From the IMG/VR virus record IMGVR_UViG_3300023196_000719, positions 1 to 21,811 of that record: 21,811 nucleotides of DNA; one strand, given 5' to 3'. This document shows positions 10,568 through 21,811 of the stretch, piece by piece. This stretch comes from a virus. The notes under the pieces are model-generated. The model made no database searches, had not been told where the DNA came from, and saw only the letters and a list, made by a program, of their open reading frames with translations. Every line of letters begins with the position of its first letter. Position 1 is the stretch's first letter. The position numbers and the translations under genes were made by a program.

Positions 10568-11254
10568 ATGGCTATAAACATAAACTCAGTTTATAAAGCT
10601 GTTCTAGTTGTTCTAGAACAAGAAAAAAGAGGTGTTTTGACGCCAAATGAATTTAACAAAATAGCTACTCAAGCGCAGCAAGAAATATTCACTCAATATT
10701 TTGATGACTTAAATCAATTATTGGGTATGCCTCAAACATCTTTAGCTTATGCTGATAGAATGGCTTTGTTAGATGAAAAAATATCGATATTTAAAACAAA
10801 CGAAACTTTAACTTTAGTTAACTCAAAAGTAACACCAACTTCAGCTGTTCAAGAATTAGGTTCTGTAATATACAGTAATAGAGAAGCTCAAAGAATACAA
10901 CAATACGAGATTTACACAACTAACCAGTCTCCATTAACAGCACCTACATCTTATTATCCTGTTTATATTTATGAAGGCGGAGAAATAACTTTATTTCCAA
11001 CGCTAACAGGTGATGTTGTTTTGAATTATTTAAAATTTCCAGCTGATGTTAAATGGGGTTTTAATATAGATTCTGAGTTAGGACATTATATTTACAATCC
11101 TTTAGACTCTACTGATTTTGAAATACATAAATCAGATCAACCATTATTAATAGATAAAATATTAGGCTACGCAGGAGTAATGACAAAAGATCAATTTGTT
11201 ATGTCTTTAGCTAACAGTAAAGAACAACAAATAAACGTTAACGATCAAAAATAA
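10568..11254 (+). CDS. neck/tail ring protein A, copy 1, 228 aa
   Basis: Likely one of the ring (adaptor or tail-tube-like) proteins joining portal to tail. The N-terminal helical block (INSVYKAVLVVLEQEKRG ... TPNEFNKIA ... IFTQYFDDLNQLLG) is followed by a beta-rich region and a C-terminal helix. The gene 11850-12608 is a clear paralogue: 43 of the first 72 residues are identical without gaps, and the C-terminal halves keep similar positions (LIDKILGYAGVM against VINRILLYAGVV). It is followed 5 bases later by ring protein B, copy 1. The ring assignment comes from gene order and resemblance to crAss-like neck genes; the fold is not proven from sequence. Confidence 0.75.
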   Translation: MAININSVYKAVLVVLEQEKRGVLTPNEFNKIATQAQQEIFTQYFDDLNQLLGMPQTSLAYADRMALLDEKISIFKTNETLTLVNSKVTPTSAVQELGSVIYSNREAQRIQQYEIYTTNQSPLTAPTSYYPVYIYEGGEITLFPTLTGDVVLNYLKFPADVKWGFNIDSELGHYIYNPLDSTDFEIHKSDQPLLIDKILGYAGVMTKDQFVMSLANSKEQQINVNDQK

Positions 11255-11259
11255 TACCC

Positions 11260-11838
11260 ATGGCAGATACAATTCTTACAAATGCTTTTATATCATTAAA
11301 TGATATAATAAACAACTTTATAATCTCTTACACTGGACCAGGTAAACTTATACCTGACTCAAAACGAACAGAAGTAGTGTTTCACGCTAGACGATGTTTA
11401 CAAGAGTTTGCTTACGAAACTTTAAAAAGTCAATTCATTGCAGATGAATTATTTTTACAATCTCCTTACGCTTTACCTGCTGATTTTGTGAGTGTTGTGT
11501 CTATAATTGTAGATGGTAACACGTATACACAAGTAGAAAGTAATCCTGGAAACGATGAATTCGCCATAAATTACACTACTAAAGTTATTACTTTTAATCC
11601 TGGCAACGTAGGTGACCCTGATTTTGAGTTCAAATATTTATCAAATGCTTTAACTAATGATGAAAATGCTGCTATTCCAAAGCTAGCTGAAGAAGCTTTA
11701 TACGCCTGTATGGTTTACGCTATATTAGCAAATAGAGAAAACACAAATCCAAACTTATTACAAAGATTATTAATAGAAAAAATAGACAAATTAGAAAGAT
11801 CAAAATCTAGATTAATTTTTACTAACTTTTCTGAATAA
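11260..11838 (+). CDS. neck/tail ring protein B, copy 1, 192 aa
   Basis: Probably a second ring or head-completion protein. The diagnostic block is LNDIINNFIISYTGPGKLI ... KRTEVVFHARRCLQEFAYETLKS (about residues 13-57). A small beta region follows, then a C-terminal helical block IPKLAEEALYACMVYAILA with an Arg/Lys-rich end. The same two blocks occur in 12615-13757, which is about twice as long because of an added N-terminal domain and an expanded centre. This is therefore the compact form. Mostly helical ends and size fit head-tail adaptor proteins of short-tailed phages such as P22 gp4, but that likeness is by position and size only. Confidence 0.72.
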   Translation: MADTILTNAFISLNDIINNFIISYTGPGKLIPDSKRTEVVFHARRCLQEFAYETLKSQFIADELFLQSPYALPADFVSVVSIIVDGNTYTQVESNPGNDEFAINYTTKVITFNPGNVGDPDFEFKYLSNALTNDENAAIPKLAEEALYACMVYAILANRENTNPNLLQRLLIEKIDKLERSKSRLIFTNFSE

Positions 11839-11849
11839 ACAAAACAGAT

Positions 11850-12608
11850 ATGGCTATAAACGTAAACTCGGTATACAAAACCGTTTTGCTGATATTAAAT
11901 AAAGAGCAACGTGGTTATATGACTCCAGATGAGTTTAATAAAACAGCCACTAAAGTTCAACTTGATATATTTGAGCAATACTTTGATGACTTAAATCAGC
12001 AGTTACGCGTGCCTCAAGCAGATTTTGATTACAGCGATAGACAAATCGATATAGATGACAAAATAGAAACGTTTAAGTGTTTAGGAAACTCTACCTATAA
12101 CTCAGGCCCAACACTTGGTTTTTTTCCTTTACCTTACAATGATATATTGCAAGGAGGTATACCTATTGTATATGATGATGATCCTGGAAATAATGAATTT
12201 GCTTTTTACAGGCTAGGTACAGTTACTTATAATGATATAGAAATTCAAAGACTACAAAGAAAAGAATTTTACAATATAGATAGATCTGACTTAACAGCAC
12301 CTAGTGAAAACTTTCCTGTTTACCTCTACGAAAGTGGTAAGGTATACGTAAAACCTACTACAATACAAACTGGCGTACAGATGTCTTTTCTTAGAAAACC
12401 TAAAAACGTTATTTGGAACTTTACGTCAAACAATGGTTATTATGAGTTTACAACTACAAACTCCCAAGACTTCGAGCTAAATACTTCCGAGCAAACTAAC
12501 GTTATAAATAGAATACTTTTATATGCTGGTGTAGTTGTTCAAGATCCCACTATAATAAATGTAGCTGCTCAGCAGATAAAACAAGAAGAACAAAACGCAA
12601 AATCTTAA
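11850..12608 (+). CDS. neck/tail ring protein A, copy 2, 252 aa
   Basis: Paralogue of the gene at 10568. It begins with nearly the same residues (MAINVNSVYKTVLLIL against MAININSVYKAVLVVL) and keeps the helix TPDEFNKTA and the block IFEQYFDDLNQQL. It is 24 residues longer, mostly from an insert after residue 75 rich in Pro, Gly and Asp (LGFFPLPYNDILQGGIPIVYDDDPG). The beta region keeps the pattern YNDIEIQRLQRKEFY and APSENFPVYLYESGKVYVKPT. Divergence at the DNA level is substantial, so the duplication is old. It sits 11 bases after ring B copy 1 and 6 bases before ring B copy 2. Confidence 0.75.
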   Translation: MAINVNSVYKTVLLILNKEQRGYMTPDEFNKTATKVQLDIFEQYFDDLNQQLRVPQADFDYSDRQIDIDDKIETFKCLGNSTYNSGPTLGFFPLPYNDILQGGIPIVYDDDPGNNEFAFYRLGTVTYNDIEIQRLQRKEFYNIDRSDLTAPSENFPVYLYESGKVYVKPTTIQTGVQMSFLRKPKNVIWNFTSNNGYYEFTTTNSQDFELNTSEQTNVINRILLYAGVVVQDPTIINVAAQQIKQEEQNAKS

Positions 12609-12614
12609 TAACAG

Positions 12615-13757
12615 ATGGGTTTAATTACAGAAAACAACGCACATTACTACTCAGGCCAACAGGCTTATATTTCAGACTCAAACGCTTTAAATGTTAGTAT
12701 AAAGTGGGTTGGAGACACTAAATTAAAGCCAACTATACAAGGTGCTCAAAACTCTAATTATCAGGTATTTATAAACAACCAACTCAAAACAGAATCTACA
12801 GATTATAACTTAGTTGATGGCTCTGTTGTTATTACTTCTTTACAAGCGGGGGACGTAGTGATTATACAGCTTGTAGAATCTGCTAGACAGGAAAATTATG
12901 GCTCATACGCATATACTAAGTTAGATGACATTGTAAACAACTTTTTAGTAGCTTATGTTGGAGACGGCAAAATGATATTATCTGCAAAAAGAACAGATAT
13001 TGTATTTTTCGCTAAAAGAGCTATGCAAGAGTTTAGCTATGATACATTAAAAAGCGTAAGATCACAAGAATTAAGCGTACCACCAAATCTAAGTATACCT
13101 ATACCTCAAGATTATGTTAATTATGTAAACATATCTTGGATAGATCAGTCAGGTATTAAACATATTATATATCCAACTACTTTAACTAGCAATCCAACAG
13201 AAATACCTTTGCAAGACGATAAAGGTATACCTATGCAAGATAGCTTTGGAAACAATATAGAAGGAAGTTCTATAACAGAAGAAAGATGGAATACTAATGG
13301 TATTGGTGTTATAAATAATCAATTAGAAGACGGATCACCTGTATGGGCTGATGTATATGGTGGAGGTTTTGGCCAAGGTTTTGCTTGGCAAAGTGGTTTC
13401 TATGGGTTACAACCTGAGGTTAGTCAAATAAACGGTTGGTTTACAATCAATGAAAGAACTAATAGTTTTTGTTTCTCAAACGACTTAGTTGGTCGTACGA
13501 TCATTTTAGAGTACATTTCTGATGGTTTAGCTTACGACTTGGATACTAGAGTCCCTAAGATGGCTGAAGAAGCTATGTATGCTTATATTTTACACGCTAT
13601 AATTTCTACTAGAATTAATCAACCTGAGTATTTAGTTCAAAGACTACGTCAAGAAAAAAGTGCTAAATTAAGAAATGCTAAAATAAGATTATCTAATATC
13701 AAGCTAAGCGAATTTGTTCAAGTTATGCGAGGTAAATCCAAGTGGATAAAATCATAA
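12615..13757 (+). CDS. neck/tail ring protein B, copy 2, with added domains, 380 aa
   Basis: Paralogue of the gene at 11260: residues about 95-150 (YTKLDDIVNNFLVAYVGDGK ... KRTDIVFFAKRAMQEFSYDTLKS) and the C-terminus (VPKMAEEAMYAYILHAIIS, then a basic end) match it. Two additions set it apart. The N-terminal 93 residues form a separate beta-sandwich-like domain with the pattern VFINNQLKTESTDYNLVDGSVVI and AGDVVIIQLVE, a form common in phage tail proteins. The centre carries a Gly/Trp/Gln-rich insert around WADVYGGGFGQGFAWQSGFYG. Such additions fit a ring that also binds outer tail parts, which is inference. It ends 5 bases before the muzzle gene. Confidence 0.75.
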   Translation: MGLITENNAHYYSGQQAYISDSNALNVSIKWVGDTKLKPTIQGAQNSNYQVFINNQLKTESTDYNLVDGSVVITSLQAGDVVIIQLVESARQENYGSYAYTKLDDIVNNFLVAYVGDGKMILSAKRTDIVFFAKRAMQEFSYDTLKSVRSQELSVPPNLSIPIPQDYVNYVNISWIDQSGIKHIIYPTTLTSNPTEIPLQDDKGIPMQDSFGNNIEGSSITEERWNTNGIGVINNQLEDGSPVWADVYGGGFGQGFAWQSGFYGLQPEVSQINGWFTINERTNSFCFSNDLVGRTIILEYISDGLAYDLDTRVPKMAEEAMYAYILHAIISTRINQPEYLVQRLRQEKSAKLRNAKIRLSNIKLSEFVQVMRGKSKWIKS

Positions 13758-13762
13758 ATTAA

Positions 13763-16700
13763 ATGGCAGAAGTAAAGAATAGTTTTATATCATCTAAAAT
13801 GAATAAAGATTTAGATGATAGATTAATACCAAAGAACGAATACAGAGACGCTTTAAACATAGCTGTTTCTAGATCAGAAGCAGGTGACGTAGGAGCTTTA
13901 GAGTCTATACTAGGTAACTCTAAGGTTACATCAAGTTCTTATGACACTGCCGGGGAGATAATAGGGTACTTTGTTGATAACACTAACTCTCTTGTTTATT
14001 ACTTTAAAACAGATTGGTATAATGCAGGTCCAGCAGATACTAATGCTAATTGCCAAGTATTAGTTTATAACTCATTAAATAACCAAACTAATTTATTATT
14101 AGAAGGTTATTGGCTTAACTTTTCTACAAAAAATCCTATTTTTGGTGTTAACTTGATAGAAGATCTATTGTTTTGGACAGACAATAGAAATCAACCAAGA
14201 AAAATAAACGTACAAATCGCAGCGAACGAAGGTAGCTCTCACTACTACAAAGAAAATCATATTTCTGTTGCTAAATACAATCCATACCAACCTATATCCC
14301 TTATAAAAGAAGAAGTTGAAGACGTTGTTAGTGTTACTTCAACAACTGTGTTTGATATTCCAGAAAACAATGGAGTAGTCGCTGGTATGACTGTATTAGG
14401 ATCGCAAAACGGATCACCAACAATATCACCAAACGAGTATATAACAGTCGTTAGCGCAGTGGCATCAACAACCTCAGGACAAACTACTGTCACAATATCA
14501 GACGCGCCGACTACAGCTATTTCAGCTACAGATACTATTTATTTCTTATCATCGACTATGACTGATAAATCAAGCGTTAGTACTTGGCCTGGTGATCCTG
14601 ATTACTTAGAAGAAAAATTTGTTAGATTCGCATATAGGTTTAAATTTGAAGACAACGAGTATTCTATTATCTCTCCTTTCACACAGATAGCTTTTATACC
14701 AAAACAAAAAGGTTACTTTATTAACGGGCAAGAAGATAATGCTGTTCAAAGTACAATTGTTAATTGGTTTGAAAACAATGTAAACAACATCGAGTTAATT
14801 ATACCTCTTCCAGACATTATTAGCAATGTTGTTAGTTCTTATAAACTTAAGGAAATTGATATACTTTACAAGGAATCTGATCAAGTAGCTATAAAGGTAG
14901 TTGACTCAATAACGCTAGATGGTGTAACTGGAGATAATAATTTCTACACGTACAACTATCAATCTACAAAACCAATTAGAACGCTTCCAGAGGATCAAAC
15001 TACTAGAGTATATGATAAAGTGCCAGTTAAAGCAATGGGGCAAGAGGTAATTGCTAATAGAGTTGTTTATAGTAATTATCAAACAAAACATACTCCTCCT
15101 CGATCTATAAATTACAATATTAACGTACAGACGAAGATTTCATCAGGTGACTACACTAACTTTGTAGAATATCCAAATCACACAGTTAAGCAAAATAGAA
15201 ATTATCAAGTTGGTATTGTTTTATCAGATAAATTTGGAAGACAATCTGACGTTATATTATCTTCAGGTCAAGGAAACGGTGTTGATGTAGCTGGTGTATT
15301 TTTTGCTGGATCTACTATATATAACGAGTATATACAAGACGAGCCAAGCGGTTCTGGTAATGTTGATGCTGGTGATATGCCTGATGGTGTGATTGATTGG
15401 CCTGGTAGTTCTCTTGTAATGGCGGTTAACACGCCGATAACATCTACAAAAACAGAAAATAGCGCTCCTGGATTATATGCACAAGAAGCCGGAAGGTTTG
15501 ACCTATTAACCTCTAGCACTACTATAATAACAGATTCTACATATACATTTGAAATAGACCCTAATGGAAATATAACTATACCTTCAGAGGGTGAATACTT
15601 AAGAGGTAATACAGTAGATTATGTGTTGGTTACCAACGTTAATAACACAGGTGGTAATGTTTATGAAATAACAACAACCGGTAGAGTAAATAACTTGTAT
15701 GAAATAGAATCTTTAAACCCGATAGACACTAAGTTTAGTTATACCGTAAATACATTAGGATGGTATTCTTACAAAATTGTTGTTAAACAAACAGAACAAG
15801 AGTATTACAATGTATATCTTCCTAGTGCAGTCGCAGGTGGTGATTTTATTGAAGATTCTACAGATACAGATAAATCTGTAAGCTACATAACACTTGTAAA
15901 TGATAACATAAATAAAGTACCAAGAGACTTAGCAGAGGTTGGGCCAGATCAAAAACAATATAGAAGTAGTGTTAAGTTGTTTGGTCGTGTTAAACCAACA
16001 GGTTCAGCAGCAGGAACATTTAGTAGTACTCAATTTTACCCATTTAGGTCTTCAGATATTTCTACATCAATTGGTAATACAGATGATTTACTAGGAGATC
16101 CACTTAGCAGCGATAGAACTGCAGCGATTTTTCAATATGAATCTAACCCTATTGTATCTAGAGTTTCTACAGAAGAACAATTTGGATTAAACTATACAAA
16201 CTTTACTCACAGTCAAGGTAATCTTAGACTAGACAGGTTTCAACTTGCTGTTTACGAAACAGAACCTTTTGTATCTAATTTAGATATTTATTGGGAGACA
16301 GCTTCAACAGGACTTATCTCTGATTTAAACTGGGATGTTAACGTAGGTTTTGATGGTCCAGTTTCTTTGCAGGATACTAACTTTGAATTTTTTGAAAGCA
16401 ACCCAGAAAAAGGTCAAGCTGGAAATATAGATCTAACAGGAACGTTTTATCCATTAAACAATACTGGAGGTGAAATGCAAAACACTGTATTAGGTGGGTA
16501 TACTGTTACAAATGGACTTGGTCAAAATGTTACTAATGATTTTGAGGTAAGTCAAATTCCTTCAACTGGACTTCAACCTAATTCGTATTATGTACAACAC
16601 TTGCGCCCGTTTGTATATGAGTATGGTAGTTCTAATGAAGATGTATTTACTTTTGAAATAGAAATCACAGATCCTAGTCCTAGTTCTTCTTGGAGCTCTG

Positions 16701-18076
16701 TTACACTTCCTTTTGAAGGTAGTTTAACCAATATAATTCCAAGCTTTGTGGTTCCAACACCTCCATATTATTATTTTGACTCTACTTTCACTACAAATCA
16801 AACAATACATGACTTTAAAGATGCTTCAAATGATGCTGTAAATGGATCTGTAGACGCAGCTAATGACACTGTTGGTTTTAGATGGAGGATTAATTCAGGT
16901 AATGGAAACGGTTATTTTGCACTAAACCAAAACACAGGTATATTGAGTTTGACTTCTGCTGGAACAAGTGCATCAATTGGTACATATCCTCTTGTAATTG
17001 AGCTTTGCGACGCAGCTGATAACGGTGTTTTAGACACTGGTAGTATTTGTACTACTAATTCAATCAGCATAGTAAAAGGTTATCCTTTATCTAATCTCGG
17101 TGAATCTCTGGGTAATTCAGAAACATGGGAGTATTATCCAAATGCACAGCCACCAGAACCAAGCAGTATTAGTTACTGTTATTATATTTCAGATGGAGTA
17201 ATAGCCGATGCAAATCTACCTAACGGCGGTGGTGATCAAGGAAATTCATTATTTTACAAACAAGATGGTGTCACTCCTGTTGGTGTGCTAGAGAGAGGAG
17301 AGTTTGGGATTAGATTTGATGCTAGAATAGATCACTTAAGTTCAAATTTAGCTCCAATATCTTCAGATATAGTTATAGAAGCGTACCATAGGCCAACCCC
17401 TTCATCTTCTTGGGTACAAATAAATGATAGTAATGGAAATGTTTCTGATCCAGAGGTACTTGTGCAAAACGACATAAATGACTCAACGCTATTTGAGTAT
17501 TATACGTATTTTGCTCAAAACACGCCGGGTGAATATGCTTTTTTAATTGAAATAGATAACTCTGCAAACACACAAGATGATATAATAGGAGAATATAATA
17601 TTAGTTTATTTGATTTACATTATACGGGTGCGGGACAAGTGCAGCATGTCTATAGATACGACTTGTATACAAACAGCGGTGATGGTTTAACCACAGTACC
17701 TACTACTGGTTGCCTTGGTACTAATCCTATAGACGCTGTATACTCAGAAGTTCCTATAGCGGAATACGTACGTGAGTTTTATGACTCTTCAAATTTAGAT
17801 CAAGTGTATACACCTCCTACAGCTGATAGATACTATGTAAGTGAGCTAAGATGGAGAGAAACTTCCACTGGTTCTATTGGTGTTGATGATAAAATTGCTT
17901 ATGGAGCACCGGTTAACAATGATGGTCAATCAAGAGATACAGCTAAAGGAGTTATTAAATTGAAAGCTGACGGACAAAAAGATGGAGTAGCTAGCATAAA
18001 TGCTCGAAGAGGTGCTAACCCTACTACTTGTAGTAACGGTAGAGGAAACAATAGAACAACTAACTTAATAGTGTAA
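13763..18076 (+). CDS. muzzle/tail-hub-like structural protein, 1437 aa
   Basis: The largest protein here, expected in the distal short tail. The N-terminus (KNSFISSKMNKDLDDRLIPK, then NEYRDALNIAVSRSEAGDVG) is a pattern I associate with the large tail (muzzle) proteins of crAss-like phages and marine relatives. Residues about 75-170 contain WYN and DLLFWTDNRNQPRKINVQ, typical of beta-propeller blades. Several beta insertions follow: about 190-265 (VVAGMTVLGSQNG ... TTVTISDAPT), about 575-655, and a cadherin- or Ig-like unit at about 1034-1096 (NGYFALNQNTGILSLTS ... PLVIELCD). The C-terminus is basic and Gly/Asn/Arg-rich (NARRGANPTT, GRGNNRTTN). There is no signal peptide or coiled coil. The exact role (closure, receptor contact or both) is inferred. 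Confidence 0.82.
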   Translation: MAEVKNSFISSKMNKDLDDRLIPKNEYRDALNIAVSRSEAGDVGALESILGNSKVTSSSYDTAGEIIGYFVDNTNSLVYYFKTDWYNAGPADTNANCQVLVYNSLNNQTNLLLEGYWLNFSTKNPIFGVNLIEDLLFWTDNRNQPRKINVQIAANEGSSHYYKENHISVAKYNPYQPISLIKEEVEDVVSVTSTTVFDIPENNGVVAGMTVLGSQNGSPTISPNEYITVVSAVASTTSGQTTVTISDAPTTAISATDTIYFLSSTMTDKSSVSTWPGDPDYLEEKFVRFAYRFKFEDNEYSIISPFTQIAFIPKQKGYFINGQEDNAVQSTIVNWFENNVNNIELIIPLPDIISNVVSSYKLKEIDILYKESDQVAIKVVDSITLDGVTGDNNFYTYNYQSTKPIRTLPEDQTTRVYDKVPVKAMGQEVIANRVVYSNYQTKHTPPRSINYNINVQTKISSGDYTNFVEYPNHTVKQNRNYQVGIVLSDKFGRQSDVILSSGQGNGVDVAGVFFAGSTIYNEYIQDEPSGSGNVDAGDMPDGVIDWPGSSLVMAVNTPITSTKTENSAPGLYAQEAGRFDLLTSSTTIITDSTYTFEIDPNGNITIPSEGEYLRGNTVDYVLVTNVNNTGGNVYEITTTGRVNNLYEIESLNPIDTKFSYTVNTLGWYSYKIVVKQTEQEYYNVYLPSAVAGGDFIEDSTDTDKSVSYITLVNDNINKVPRDLAEVGPDQKQYRSSVKLFGRVKPTGSAAGTFSSTQFYPFRSSDISTSIGNTDDLLGDPLSSDRTAAIFQYESNPIVSRVSTEEQFGLNYTNFTHSQGNLRLDRFQLAVYETEPFVSNLDIYWETASTGLISDLNWDVNVGFDGPVSLQDTNFEFFESNPEKGQAGNIDLTGTFYPLNNTGGEMQNTVLGGYTVTNGLGQNVTNDFEVSQIPSTGLQPNSYYVQHLRPFVYEYGSSNEDVFTFEIEITDPSPSSSWSSVTLPFEGSLTNIIPSFVVPTPPYYYFDSTFTTNQTIHDFKDASNDAVNGSVDAANDTVGFRWRINSGNGNGYFALNQNTGILSLTSAGTSASIGTYPLVIELCDAADNGVLDTGSICTTNSISIVKGYPLSNLGESLGNSETWEYYPNAQPPEPSSISYCYYISDGVIADANLPNGGGDQGNSLFYKQDGVTPVGVLERGEFGIRFDARIDHLSSNLAPISSDIVIEAYHRPTPSSSWVQINDSNGNVSDPEVLVQNDINDSTLFEYYTYFAQNTPGEYAFLIEIDNSANTQDDIIGEYNISLFDLHYTGAGQVQHVYRYDLYTNSGDGLTTVPTTGCLGTNPIDAVYSEVPIAEYVREFYDSSNLDQVYTPPTADRYYVSELRWRETSTGSIGVDDKIAYGAPVNNDGQSRDTAKGVIKLKADGQKDGVASINARRGANPTTCSNGRGNNRTTNLIV

Positions 18077-18106: not shown

Positions 18107-19690
18107 ATGGCAGCTACTATAGAATTGAAATACTATAACTCTTTTTGGTTAAAGAAGATTAAAAGCATTACAGATGTAGTTTCCGGATCAACACCTGCTT
18201 TTGTTTCTCAAAACAACAACATCATAAACATAAACTCACCAGGTTTTGGGGTTTTTAGTATGAATGTTGGACAAGAAGTAACTATAGAATATAGTGGTGG
18301 TACATATATAGGATACATAACTAAAAGAAATAGTGATACTCAGATTGTAGTAAACCCAACACCAGATCCTGTTATAACAAGCGTTACTAGCTTTGTGCTA
18401 GGACCTATAAAAGACTTTACAAACATACCAAAAGAATACAACGCATCAACAGCGAATATAAATAAAGACTGGTACATAGAAGAAGCAAGAGTGCGTGGTG
18501 GATACAACAACACTACTGTGGATTTTGGTGTTAAAGCATATGCTGTAGATCAAGTTAAAGAAGCTGAAATTAGAGAAAGTTCTCTTATTTATTCAGGTGT
18601 ATATAATTCTAGAACTGGTATAAATAACACTAACCAATTTTCAGTTGCTCAAGATATCACTAGATCTACTGACCCAAGATATGGATCTATACAGAAGCTT
18701 TACGCAGAAGATTCTAATCTTGTTATTTTTCAAGAAAGAAAAGTAAGTAGAGCATTAATAGATAAAGACGCTATATATAGTCAAGAAGGTATGCCTTTAA
18801 CGACTGCTTCTAATTTGGTTATTGGAAATATACAACCATATGCTGGTGAGTTTGGTATATCTAAAAATCCAGAATCTTTTGCAGTTTATGGTTATAGAAA
18901 ATACTTTACAGATGCATCGAGAGGAGCTGTACTTAGGTTATCTATGGACGGTATAACGGAGATATCTAATTACGGTATGTACGATTTCTTTAGAGATAAT
19001 TTTGGATCTTTACAAGGTGGTAAAGCTATTGGAGGTTATGACATATATAACAACTCATACGTATTATCTCTTCAACCGAATAACGAAGAAAATAAAGTAA
19101 CTGTTACTTTTGACGAATCAGTCAAAGGTTGGACAAGTGTTTTAAGTTATATACCTACACAGTTGTTTAGTATTCAAAACAATTTCTTTTCAACTAAAGA
19201 TGGTTCTATATACAAGCATTATACAGATATAGATCTTTTAGGTGCTGTTGTTCCAAGAGCTAACTTCTACGGTGTACAATATGATTCAACTGTAACTAGT
19301 GTATTAAATCTACAACCTTCTGTATCAAAATCCTTTAAAACAATAAATTATGAAGGTGGGCAAAATTGGTCAATGACTAGCTTTGTAACAAACAAAGGTT
19401 TAGTTAACGAAGATCAAGCTAACTTTGTAGATGTTTTCTCTATACCTCTAACATTGCTAGATATGGAAAACAGTTTATTTAAAAATAAATTTAAAAGAAA
19501 AGAAAATAAATACTTTGCTAATCTTATAAATACTAGCTCAGCTACTCAAGGTGAAGTTGTATATGGTCAATCAATTTCTGGAGTAAAAGGATTTTTTGCT
19601 ACAGTTAAAATGACAGCTACTAATACAGCTACATCTGGATCAAATGAATTATTTTCTTTATCTTCAAATTTCTCAGAATCATCATATTAA
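18107..19690 (+). CDS. propeller-like tail structural protein, 527 aa
   Basis: Follows the muzzle-like gene. Residues about 25-95 form a small beta domain (FSMNVGQEVTIEYSGGTYIG). The core has a strong block at about 188-302: YGSIQKLYAEDSNLVIFQE, KVSRALIDKDAIYSQEG, then NPESFAVYGYRKYFTD and AVLRLSMDGITEISNYGMYD. These repeated strand-turn patterns suggest a beta-propeller, as in stabilisation proteins of short-tailed phages (P22 gp10 type). The C-terminal part is Ser/Thr/Asn-rich beta sequence. In some related phages this kind of core may lie in the same polypeptide as the muzzle N-terminus; if so, the two genes here are a split form. That point is from memory and unverified. The leader is GATTAATTAATT with no Shine-Dalgarno. 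Confidence 0.75.
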   Translation: MAATIELKYYNSFWLKKIKSITDVVSGSTPAFVSQNNNIININSPGFGVFSMNVGQEVTIEYSGGTYIGYITKRNSDTQIVVNPTPDPVITSVTSFVLGPIKDFTNIPKEYNASTANINKDWYIEEARVRGGYNNTTVDFGVKAYAVDQVKEAEIRESSLIYSGVYNSRTGINNTNQFSVAQDITRSTDPRYGSIQKLYAEDSNLVIFQERKVSRALIDKDAIYSQEGMPLTTASNLVIGNIQPYAGEFGISKNPESFAVYGYRKYFTDASRGAVLRLSMDGITEISNYGMYDFFRDNFGSLQGGKAIGGYDIYNNSYVLSLQPNNEENKVTVTFDESVKGWTSVLSYIPTQLFSIQNNFFSTKDGSIYKHYTDIDLLGAVVPRANFYGVQYDSTVTSVLNLQPSVSKSFKTINYEGGQNWSMTSFVTNKGLVNEDQANFVDVFSIPLTLLDMENSLFKNKFKRKENKYFANLINTSSATQGEVVYGQSISGVKGFFATVKMTATNTATSGSNELFSLSSNFSESSY

Positions 19691-19700
19691 ATCAAATTAA

Positions 19701-20108
19701 ATGAAATTAAATATACGTAAACTTACCGATAACGATTGGGAAACTCTTTGTTGTTGGTGGGAACAATGGCCTAAGTGGCAAAATCCACCTAAAAGCTTTC
19801 TACCAGATAACGGTACAGGTGGTTTAATGGTTGAAAAAGATAATCAACCTATTGTTGCTGGTTTTCTTTACTTTACAAATTCCGATGCTGTATTACTAGA
19901 ATGGATAGTTTCAAATCCAGACTACAGAGACAAAGATCGTAAAAAAGCTATAGAGCTTTTAATAGCTACGGCGGAAAACGTATGTAAAGAATCTGGTAAA
20001 AAATATATGTTTAGTATAGGTAGAAACAAGCATTTGATAGAAACACACAAAAAACTAGGTTGGGTTGTAGATAAAACCCCATCACATGAACTAATAAAAA
20101 ATATATAA
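19701..20108 (+). CDS. GNAT-fold acetyltransferase-like protein, 135 aa
   Basis: Length and motif order fit the GCN5-related N-acetyltransferase fold. Strand 1 and helix 1 are LNIRKLTDNDWETLCCWWEQ. A conserved-looking loop follows (PPKSFLPDNGTGGLMVE). Strand 4 is AVLLEWIVSNPDYRD, and the acetyl-CoA pyrophosphate-binding loop should come next (residues 76-83, RDKDRKKA). Its usual Gly residues (RxxGxG/A) are replaced by Asp and Lys, so CoA binding may be altered. Strand 5 and helix 4 (KYMFSIGRNKHLIETHKKLGW) match the end of the fold. Small GNAT-like genes of this type occur in marine phage virion operons; the substrate is unknown. It sits 10 bases after the tail gene and 3 bases before the internal protein. 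Confidence 0.75.
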   Translation: MKLNIRKLTDNDWETLCCWWEQWPKWQNPPKSFLPDNGTGGLMVEKDNQPIVAGFLYFTNSDAVLLEWIVSNPDYRDKDRKKAIELLIATAENVCKESGKKYMFSIGRNKHLIETHKKLGWVVDKTPSHELIKNI

Positions 20109-20111
20109 ATT

Positions 20112-20843
20112 ATGGGTATAGTAACCGCAGCAGTAGTAGGCGCAGTAGGATCAGCTGTAGGTTCTGCAGTTGGAGCTAGTAAAGCAAAAAAAGCAGCTGG
20201 TAGAGCTAGAACCGCAAAAGCACAAGCACAAGCAGAGCTAAACACTTTAAAAGCAAATAGGCAGACAGTTATAAATCCATATGAATCAACAACTGATTTA
20301 TCTGGTTTAGCAACTGATCTTTCAAATCAACTATCAAACCCTTTTGCGAGCCTTGGTGTTGCAACTCAAGCTGCTGAGATACAAATAGAACAAGCTGATA
20401 TAGCTTTAGCTAATACTTTAGATACAATAAGAGCCACCGGAGCAAGTGCTGGTGGAGCAACTGCATTAGCTCAAGCAGCTTTAGCTAGTAAAAAAGGAGT
20501 GGCAGCGAATATAGAACAACAAGAAGCTCAAAACGAAAAACTAAAAGCTCAAGGAGAGCAACAACTTCAAGCTCAAAAAATGTCTGAGCAACAACGTTTA
20601 CAAGGTATCGCTATATCTGAAGGTCAAAGACTTCAAGCGGCTGACGCTGCTGGTAAGCAATTTAAGTTCCAAACTCAAGAAAACAGAACTAACGCCGATA
20701 TGGATAGAGCAGCTGGAGCAATATCGCAAGCCCAAGCTCAAGAGGCACAAGCTAATCAAGCTAGAGCAAGTGCTATAGCTGGAGGTATTGGAGCTATTGG
20801 AGGTATAGCTTCCAGTGCTATAGGAGCATTTGGAAAAAAGTAG
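20112..20843 (+). CDS. putative internal virion (ejection) protein, 243 aa
   Basis: Composition and position suggest a protein packed in the head or neck and ejected with the DNA, comparable to T7 gp14 or P22 gp7. The N-terminus is a small-residue hydrophobic segment with a glycine-zipper look (VTAAVVGAVGSAVGSAVGAS). The middle (residues about 30-220) is an Ala/Gln/Lys-rich helical region with coiled-coil character. The C-terminus has a second glycine-zipper segment (ASAIAGGIGAIGGIASSAIG) ending FGKK. Two such segments fit membrane insertion during DNA entry. It ends in TAG, a stop used by only two genes here, directly after an A-AAA-AAG heptamer. A longer form read in the -1 frame is possible. 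Confidence 0.78.
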   Translation: MGIVTAAVVGAVGSAVGSAVGASKAKKAAGRARTAKAQAQAELNTLKANRQTVINPYESTTDLSGLATDLSNQLSNPFASLGVATQAAEIQIEQADIALANTLDTIRATGASAGGATALAQAALASKKGVAANIEQQEAQNEKLKAQGEQQLQAQKMSEQQRLQGIAISEGQRLQAADAAGKQFKFQTQENRTNADMDRAAGAISQAQAQEAQANQARASAIAGGIGAIGGIASSAIGAFGKK

Positions 20844-20935
20844 AGGCTCCGGTAACAGGTAAGACCTCATTTAAAATGATAGACGTAACACAAGACTTTG
20901 GAATTGATGAAAATTATGGAACAAGAGTTGGTTAA
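20834..20935 (+). other. candidate -1 frameshift site and 31-codon extension, or a 19-codon mini-gene
   Basis: The heptamer A-AAA-AAG (20834-20840) is in the right phase (AAA AAG as zero-frame codons) and is followed directly by TAG. In the -1 frame the sequence continues GTA GAG GCT for 31 codons (VEAPVTGKTSFK ... ENYGTRVG) to a TAA at 20933-20935, nearly filling the space to the next gene. Downstream pairing is weak (GAGG 20843-20846 with CCTC 20865-20868). Alternatively, an ATG at 20876, preceded by CATTTAAA like the capsid leader, would start a 19-residue peptide (MIDVTQDFGIDENYGTRVG). The same heptamer also occurs in phase inside two other genes, so on its own it is weak evidence. Confidence 0.4.
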
Positions 20936-20947
20936 AAATAAAAAAAT

Positions 20948-21811
20948 ATGAGTTATAGAAATCCACCTATAATCGTAGATAGATCTACAGACGTTTGGGG
21001 AAAAGCAATAGCTGGTTTCGGGCAACAAGTTGCTCAAGGAATCTTAAGTGCTAGCGAAGCTAGAAGAAAAGCGGAAGCAGCTCAAGCAGCTCAAGCTAGA
21101 AAAGAAGCTCTTGCTCAACAAAAGCTAACAACAGCTACTAGAGCGTCTTATATGGATGCAGCTAGAGATAAATACATTCAAATCAAAAAAAATGGTGGCT
21201 TAAGCTTAGCTCAGCAATTTATGAAGCAAGTTGAGATTGATTTAAACGGTGCTGATGGAAAACCAGGAGCTATAGATGCTTCTGTTCAATTAGCTTTAAA
21301 TACTAGTCTAGATGCAGACCAAAGAGAAGAGTATAATAAAATAGTAGATAGCGCTAAAATGTATCAAACTGAAGCTGTTAGTGGTTTTGCAAACGTTATG
21401 TCTGGATTAGATTATGCAAAAGAAAAAGGTGAAGATATGCAAACAAAACCTGGAGGTTGGACTTATAAAGGAGGTAATAAGAAGGAAAGATTTTCTAATC
21501 AATTATTACACTATGCACTTGATACAGATGTGATGATCAATGATGATGTTATAGAGGACAGAAAGACGTATAAAGGTAAAGAAGGAGAAATATTTGTAGA
21601 GGGTATAACATTAGTTCCTGTAGAACAGTTTAATGAAGGCGGTACTTTTGCAAAAACATTAGATGAAGGTGAATTGAAAGATGTAGAAAAAGTCACTAAA
21701 GGAGATAAGGTTTATTATAAATTTTCTAGCAAAAAAGACGTAAGACAGTGGGATGGTGAGCTTGTAACAGATATTCCAGCTTTACCAGACTATTCTAAGG
21801 TTTACCAAGAA
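20948..21811 (+). CDS. putative large internal virion/ejection protein, N-terminal part (partial)
   Basis: From ATG 20948 the frame is open for 288 codons to the end of the window, so the gene continues beyond it. It begins MSYRNPPIIVDRSTDVWGKA. Residues about 18-35 are an amphipathic segment rich in small residues (AIAGFGQQVAQGILSASEA), followed by an Ala/Gln/Arg helix (EARRKAEAAQAAQARKEALA). The rest is charged and mixed alpha/beta (for example EGEIFVEGITLVPVEQF). Position after a glycine-zipper internal protein fits a second ejection or cargo protein. No lytic transglycosylase or protease motif is visible in the part present. The A-rich leader AAAAATAAAAAAAT supports this start. The 12-base gap from the candidate -1 extension is filled by this leader. 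Confidence 0.72.
   Translation, partial: MSYRNPPIIVDRSTDVWGKAIAGFGQQVAQGILSASEARRKAEAAQAAQARKEALAQQKLTTATRASYMDAARDKYIQIKKNGGLSLAQQFMKQVEIDLNGADGKPGAIDASVQLALNTSLDADQREEYNKIVDSAKMYQTEAVSGFANVMSGLDYAKEKGEDMQTKPGGWTYKGGNKKERFSNQLLHYALDTDVMINDDVIEDRKTYKGKEGEIFVEGITLVPVEQFNEGGTFAKTLDEGELKDVEKVTKGDKVYYKFSSKKDVRQWDGELVTDIPALPDYSKVYQE

Follow-up and report, generated by a model that had tools for sequence, protein, structure and literature searches.

A gp14-like gene in the 21,811-nt stretch of viral DNA analysed here (the whole stretch, hereafter the window) very probably undergoes programmed -1 ribosomal frameshifting at a slippery stop, which would place an exchangeable C-terminal tail on the gene product. 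The original prediction, namely that a short and a long protein could be made through a -1 frameshift, appears to be the best explanation of the sequences at hand, in that the slippery heptamer, the stop codon and a -1 open reading frame (ORF) filling the gap up to the next gene recur in relatives.

Results

The gp14-like gene occupies positions 20112..20843 of the plus strand (all features below are on this strand) and encodes a 243-aa, Ala/Gln-rich protein with hydrophobic Gly/Ala-rich ends; the reading frame is backed by the ORF itself and by 221 distinct homologous genes among the matches listed. Its terminal codons are GGA-AAA-AAG-TAG. That is, as had been claimed, A_AAA_AAG stands in phase as the last two sense codons (20834..20840) and is flush with the 0-frame stop TAG (20841..20843), a codon that ends only two of the 19 complete genes in the window. 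The -1 frame then continues through 31 codons plus TAA (20840..20935; tail VEAPVTGKTSFKMIDVTQDFGIDENYGTRVG) and closes at 20933-20935, leaving 12 nt before the ATG of the next gene at 20948, which also agrees with the earlier description. A single A_AAA_AAG in the window is unremarkable since AAAAAAG occurs 17 times against 16.55 expected, and in-phase copies are also found at 318, 2209 and 3108, the first and the last of which the original prediction had itself pointed out. What exceeds chance is the combination of heptamer, stop and gap-filling -1 ORF, repeated across homologues.

Homologues were collected with eight scans of IMG/VR and one scan of GTDB genomes, the IMG/VR scans each contributing their best 80 matches to queries that were mostly tail-bearing. 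Among the matches listed, at least 663 loci were pooled (the window itself, L081, and nine isolate loci, L394-L402, are left out of this number), at least 615 of them with a complete gene and at least 221 representing distinct genes. We measured the gap from the 0-frame stop to the ATG of the next gene and considered gaps of at least 60 nt to be long; 218 of the 221 genes could be scored, those without a scorable next gene being L008 and two tail-bearers cut by contig ends (L115 and L513). A heptamer was counted when it was in phase, of the form X_XXY_YYZ with Y = A or T, and located within the last three codons.

Long gaps were present in 31 of the 218 scorable genes among the matches listed, and heptamers were strongly concentrated there, i.e., in 25/31 long-gap vs. 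5/187 short-gap genes of the same matches (Fisher p = 2e-22). After thinning at 90% identity, the corresponding fractions were 23/27 and 5/170 (p = 3e-21). GGGAAAN in particular ended 21 of the 31 long-gap genes and none of the 187 short-gap genes; as background within these genes, X_XXY_YYZ was found at 117 and GGGAAAN at three of 42,874 codon positions. The six other long-gap genes comprise three with a -1 tail but no canonical heptamer (L046, L061, L158), two with a +1-frame tail (L107, L497), and L030, which runs into the next gene. In L030, the gp14-like frame enters the start of that gene and stops inside it, representing a fusion or an indel, and L030 was left out of the tail count.

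Assigned by hand, and with the contig-end cases L115 and L513 as well as L046, L061 and L158 included, the genes with a -1 tail number 30 among the matches listed, 27 of them (the window included) bearing an in-phase heptamer equivalent to that of the window. The -1 direction is clear in the 25 heptamer-bearing long-gap genes, 24 of which have a -1 ORF of at least 23 codons vs. only three with a +1 ORF of that length, and in most tail genes the open -1 ORF ends just 5' of the next gene. In the comparison of homologues that was proposed earlier as a check, heptamer, stop and -1 tail do recur in diverged relatives, but 189 of the 221 relatives among the matches listed have no tail. The 32 tail-bearers among these 221 overstate the frequency of tails since the best 80 matches per scan were taken for mostly tail-bearing queries. 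Given that most homologues are without it, the tail should be viewed as an exchangeable module and not as an essential part of the protein.

The dnaX-type designation originally given to the slippery site is correct for the window but does not extend to the family. Of the 27 heptamer-bearing -1 tail genes, 22 have G_GGA_AAN (ending in AAG in 13, AAT in four, AAA in three and AAC in two), four have A_AAA_AAG (the window, L023, L115 and L549) and one has A_AAA_AAC (L490). The stop codon is flush with the heptamer in 21 of these genes, one codon away in five and two codons away in one. What the family conserves is thus the placement of some slippery heptamer at the stop, in most cases of the lambda type G_GGA_AAN, and not the dnaX-type sequence. 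Both A_AAA_AAG and G_GGA_AAG are shift-prone in E. coli according to a review (PMC5009743).

These heptamer types bear directly on two explanations that invoke the A-run of the window. An indel introduced there by sequencing or assembly, with the gene truly reading through in a single frame, could be suspected from the six-A homopolymer and from the existence of in-frame versions of two tails (in L537 and L147; see below). However, L023, which comes from another assembly and encodes a protein 94% identical to that of the window, has the identical heptamer, TAG and tail arrangement (the two tails are 87% identical over 30 aa); 22 relatives carry G_GGA_AAN, with no long run and yet a -1 tail in each; and an indel would not explain why 25 of the 31 long-gap genes have their heptamer at the stop. 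The homopolymer indel, a real alternative in the original prediction, thus does not survive the comparison with L023 and with the tail-bearing relatives, and we consider it extremely improbable. The other explanation, transcriptional slippage, holds that the polymerase adds or skips an A within the run to produce a mixed mRNA pool, for which the six consecutive A of the window and L023 could be suitable. Bacterial transcriptional slippage usually involves runs of some nine nucleotides or more, and 22 of the 27 heptamers are GGGAAAN, in which the A run is only three or four long, making this explanation very improbable too.

The tails of the family are 15-49 aa long, contain no recognised domain, and fall into several related sets (L004/L046/L073/L089/L404, L005/L009, L029/L092, L061/L475, L065/L515/L497, window/L023 and L035/L044), some of which unite genes with quite different bodies. 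Homology between the tails of diverged phages is seen in the first four of these sets and in L065/L515. Related tails are also reached in different frames. L537, which has no shift site, carries in frame the end of a tail of the L534 type (81% identity over 16 aa); L147, also without a shift site, has an in-frame stretch resembling the L046 tail (E 6e-4); and the +1-frame tail of L497 is 82% identical over 17 aa to the -1 tail of L515. Since the same tails recur in frame and via +1, there is strong evidence, at the level of sequence comparison, that the tail peptides are translated. It should be added that L107 and L497 are related genes with different tails, both with a +1-frame tail after GCC TTT GGG TAA C, for which a +1 shift at GGG_T before the stop or a shared indel are possible explanations.

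Translation of the tail could, in principle, also start independently, as a separate mini-gene of 19 codons with its own ATG at 20876, an option that the original prediction had raised and that the -1-frame ATG at codon 13 of the window and L023 tails would allow. The option is rejected for the family, since in 27 of 32 tails no ATG inside the tail would give a product of 15 codons or more, and it leaves the placement of heptamer and stop unexplained; for the window as well, we judge it highly improbable compared to translation of the tail by frameshifted ribosomes.

Patterns of nucleotide change are consistent with a coding role of the tail in several pairs. Differences in seven tail pairs number 40/25/62 at codon positions 1/2/3, and tail dN/dS is 0.14 for L035/L044, 0.36 for L005/L009, 0.17 for L089/L404, 0.18 for L061/L475, and 0.19 for both L004/L404 and L073/L004, although only 0.6 for L004/L046 and not computable for L029/L092. 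For the window/L023 pair, purifying selection on the tail is not evident since its dN/dS is 1.47, based on one synonymous and five non-synonymous changes, vs. 0.13 for the body. This value, together with the patchy presence of tails (21 or more changes needed; see below), is what might be expected if the tail were a decayed leftover, that is, the dead remnant of a formerly in-frame C-terminus, with the shift having no function. Decay would not, however, account for the enrichment of heptamers at the stop, for third-position-biased change being kept in tail pairs, or for most -1 ORFs being open and ending just before the next gene, and we find it very improbable that the tail is such a remnant rather than a frameshift-encoded extension.

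The C-terminus appears to be where these genes exchange material. To explain the tails of 32 genes, a quick tree built from the 221 bodies needs 21 or more changes; L001-L003, which are about 80% identical to the window, end with a different short in-frame stretch and have no tail; and 12 of the 221 genes have an in-frame C-terminal module that is S74-like (Peptidase_S74, chaperone of endosialidase), none of these 12 being tail-bearing. These three observations make the C-terminus an exchange point, and the relatives seem to swap tails like cassettes. The S74-like module is found in L010, L121, L156, L238, L560, L565, L578, L581, L598, L602, L606 and L620, and the Pfam match of L010 to Peptidase_S74 (E 0.0046) is below the cut-off.

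Downstream of the heptamer, a bulged stem-loop is predicted in the window that starts 2 nt past the heptamer (20843..20868; RNAfold -7.3 kcal/mol, z -1.3); the window and L023 have two differences in this stretch, one in the loop and one in a bulge. The earlier impression that downstream structure is weak is partly justified for the window but not for most tail-bearing relatives, which have a clearer stem. Over a span of 36 nt from the stop onward, the mean folding energy is -7.3 kcal/mol in 30 tail genes vs. -0.5 in 189 others, and the mean folding z is -0.92 vs. 0.14 (p = 2e-7); when the span at the stop is compared to a later span of the same tails, the difference in z reaches only p = 0.016. 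Counting stems of 4 bp or more that contain three or more G-C pairs and start within 14 nt of the stop, one is present in 22 of the 32 tail genes and in none of the 189 others, a contrast that partly reflects base composition because the latter are AT-rich spacers. In L035 and L044, a 6-7 bp stem is kept and the loops are changed.

Within the predicted stem-loop of the window lies the element GGC-N6-16-TAAGNCC (20845..20866), which occurs at a fixed distance (+4 nt, counted from the stop codon's first base) in nine of the 221 genes, all tail-bearing (the window, L004, L023, L046, L054, L061, L404, L475 and L515), in two different reading frames and in no tail-less gene, with 14 occurrences in total in 1.06 Mb. 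RNAalifold on these nine relatives gave three pairs and no compensatory changes, so that the hairpin of this subgroup is without covariation support. The element may represent a second kind of stimulator.

As to the protein itself, gene order and weak profile matches make it a probable internal virion (ejection) protein, and it is likely to be gp14-like by function, without membership in the Pfam family. It has no significant family match in PHROG or Pfam; none of 12 records of relatives exceeded the curated cut-off of Pfam T7_gp14 (PF24072), the best match being E 1.6e-4 with 16.8 bits vs. a cut-off of 27. For L010, an in-frame variant, there is a match to a 'DNA ejection protein' PHROG (8.6e-7), although its C-terminal module may carry that match. 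An AlphaFold model of the gp14-like protein was too poor for fold comparison (mean pLDDT 57.8), and searching PDB sequences with a profile of the family returned only designed proteins and a t-SNARE construct (E 0.048-0.65). The relative MW202828 has a counterpart of 302 aa followed by genes of 644 aa and ~3,860 aa, the same order as in gp14-gp15-gp16 ejection clusters (PMC8954989). In the window, the next gene (20948..21811) is partial, the window ending within it; it occupies the place expected for a gp15-like ejection protein and had no match in PHROG or Pfam.

Flanking genes point to Pachyviridae and Elemovirus, and the nearest terminases are those of one uncultured phage record and then of Flavobacterium, Cellulophaga, Tenacibaculum and Maribacter phages. 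The sole genome record with the feature among the matches listed (L404) carries the title Bacteroidetes. From these relationships, we infer Bacteroidota as the host phylum of what we take to be podoviruses. No cultured tail-bearing phage was found, given that tblastn of the window and L050 proteins had no match in 50,697 phage records, where the low-complexity filter may hide Ala/Gln-rich proteins. A tail would have no room in two elemo phages that are in culture or in Cellulophaga phage phi18:3, where the start annotated for the next gene lies 1-2 nt after the probable counterpart.

A few further features of the neighbourhood were observed. Directly 5' of the gp14-like gene is a small gene (19701-20108) of phrog_17252, a PHROG without assigned function, that also adjoins structural genes in Cellulophaga, Maribacter, Tenacibaculum and Flavobacterium phages; in MW202828, this position is taken by a gene with the annotation N-terminal acetyltransferase subunit. 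The neighbouring window genes 13763-18076 and 18107-19690 match different parts of phrog_14478, which has 1474 positions, with 1-181 and 932-1230 as the best stretches; it looks as though a single family of structural proteins were divided here between two genes. Finally, 10568-13757 holds a tandem duplicated gene pair, with 10568-11254 and 11850-12608 being 40% identical (E 3e-56) and 11260-11838 and 12615-13757 having two stretches in common (E 7e-19 and 1e-14).

Discussion

The mechanism that we propose is as follows. Ribosomes translating the gp14-like gene would meet A_AAA_AAG immediately before TAG, and the majority would terminate to give the 243-aa protein, while a fraction would slip back one base, with both tRNAs re-pairing in the -1 frame, aided by the adjoining stop codon and the short hairpin just 3' of it. 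The slipped ribosomes would read 31 further codons and produce a 274-residue form with a C-terminal tail, so that tailed subunits would be the minority. We infer that the slippage is ribosomal, that both forms are present in the virion, that the protein is of the gp14 type, and that the tail makes contact with a partner, either of the core or of the cell envelope. More tentatively, and as a possibility that we would not yet call probable, the gene end may serve as a slot in which recoding appends C-terminal cassettes to an ejection protein of these phages. Short tails would then be exchanged between phages at the slippery stop and used in whichever frame they land (-1, +1 or in frame), the rate of slippage would set the number of tailed pore subunits, and the tail would adapt the machinery of ejection to a host envelope or a partner protein.

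Frameshifted phage extensions are known mainly from capsid and tail genes, and our analysis would add a protein that probably acts in ejection and is found across a large Bacteroidota phage group, with slippery sites acting as landing points for exchangeable tails. In practical terms, a gene caller would end the product at the stop and miss the tail. With tails that are reached by -1, by +1 or in frame, or that are absent, the family is also a natural series in which to ask what determines the proportion of tailed and untailed subunits of the internal core. We found no frameshift in a gp14-like or ejection gene in the portions of the open-access literature covered, and neither the available part of the ejection-protein review PMC8954989 nor that of the flavophage paper PMC8776804 mentions 'frameshift'.

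A -1 frameshift extension is thus of a known kind, and its occurrence in a gp14-like gene and the cassette behaviour appear to be undescribed. The frameshift site of lambda G-GT, the tail assembly chaperone, is GGGAAAG. The family studied here shares this type of heptamer (G_GGA_AAG) with lambda but involves no tail chaperone and has a podovirus-like gene context; further, the lambda shift adds a second domain that recruits tail subunits, whereas that of the gp14-like gene would provide an extension only. T7 gp14 (internal virion protein B, an outer-membrane pore) is similar in size, gene order and, weakly, in profile (PMC8954989), although the family falls below the Pfam cut-off in 12 of 12 records. 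In gene 10 of T7/T3 (gp10A/gp10B) and in Lactobacillus phage A2, a -1 shift near the 3' end yields a C-terminally extended structural protein (PMC5009743). The likeness lies in this shift and the extended form that results, but in those systems the extended products are major capsid or tail proteins and the additions are often Ig-like domains, as opposed to a tail of 15-49 aa on a protein with a probable role in ejection; the type of site and the arrangement of the stop differ as well. Ig-like extensions provide a parallel for cassette behaviour: depending on the phage, an extension of the same kind may lie in frame or require a -1 or a +1 shift, which has been explained by mobile modules (Fraser et al., cited in PMC5009743). 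The same indifference to frame is seen here in L515 (-1), L497 (+1), and L537 and L147 (in frame), with the differences that the tails are short, not Ig-like in length, and that the slippery site usually abuts the stop.
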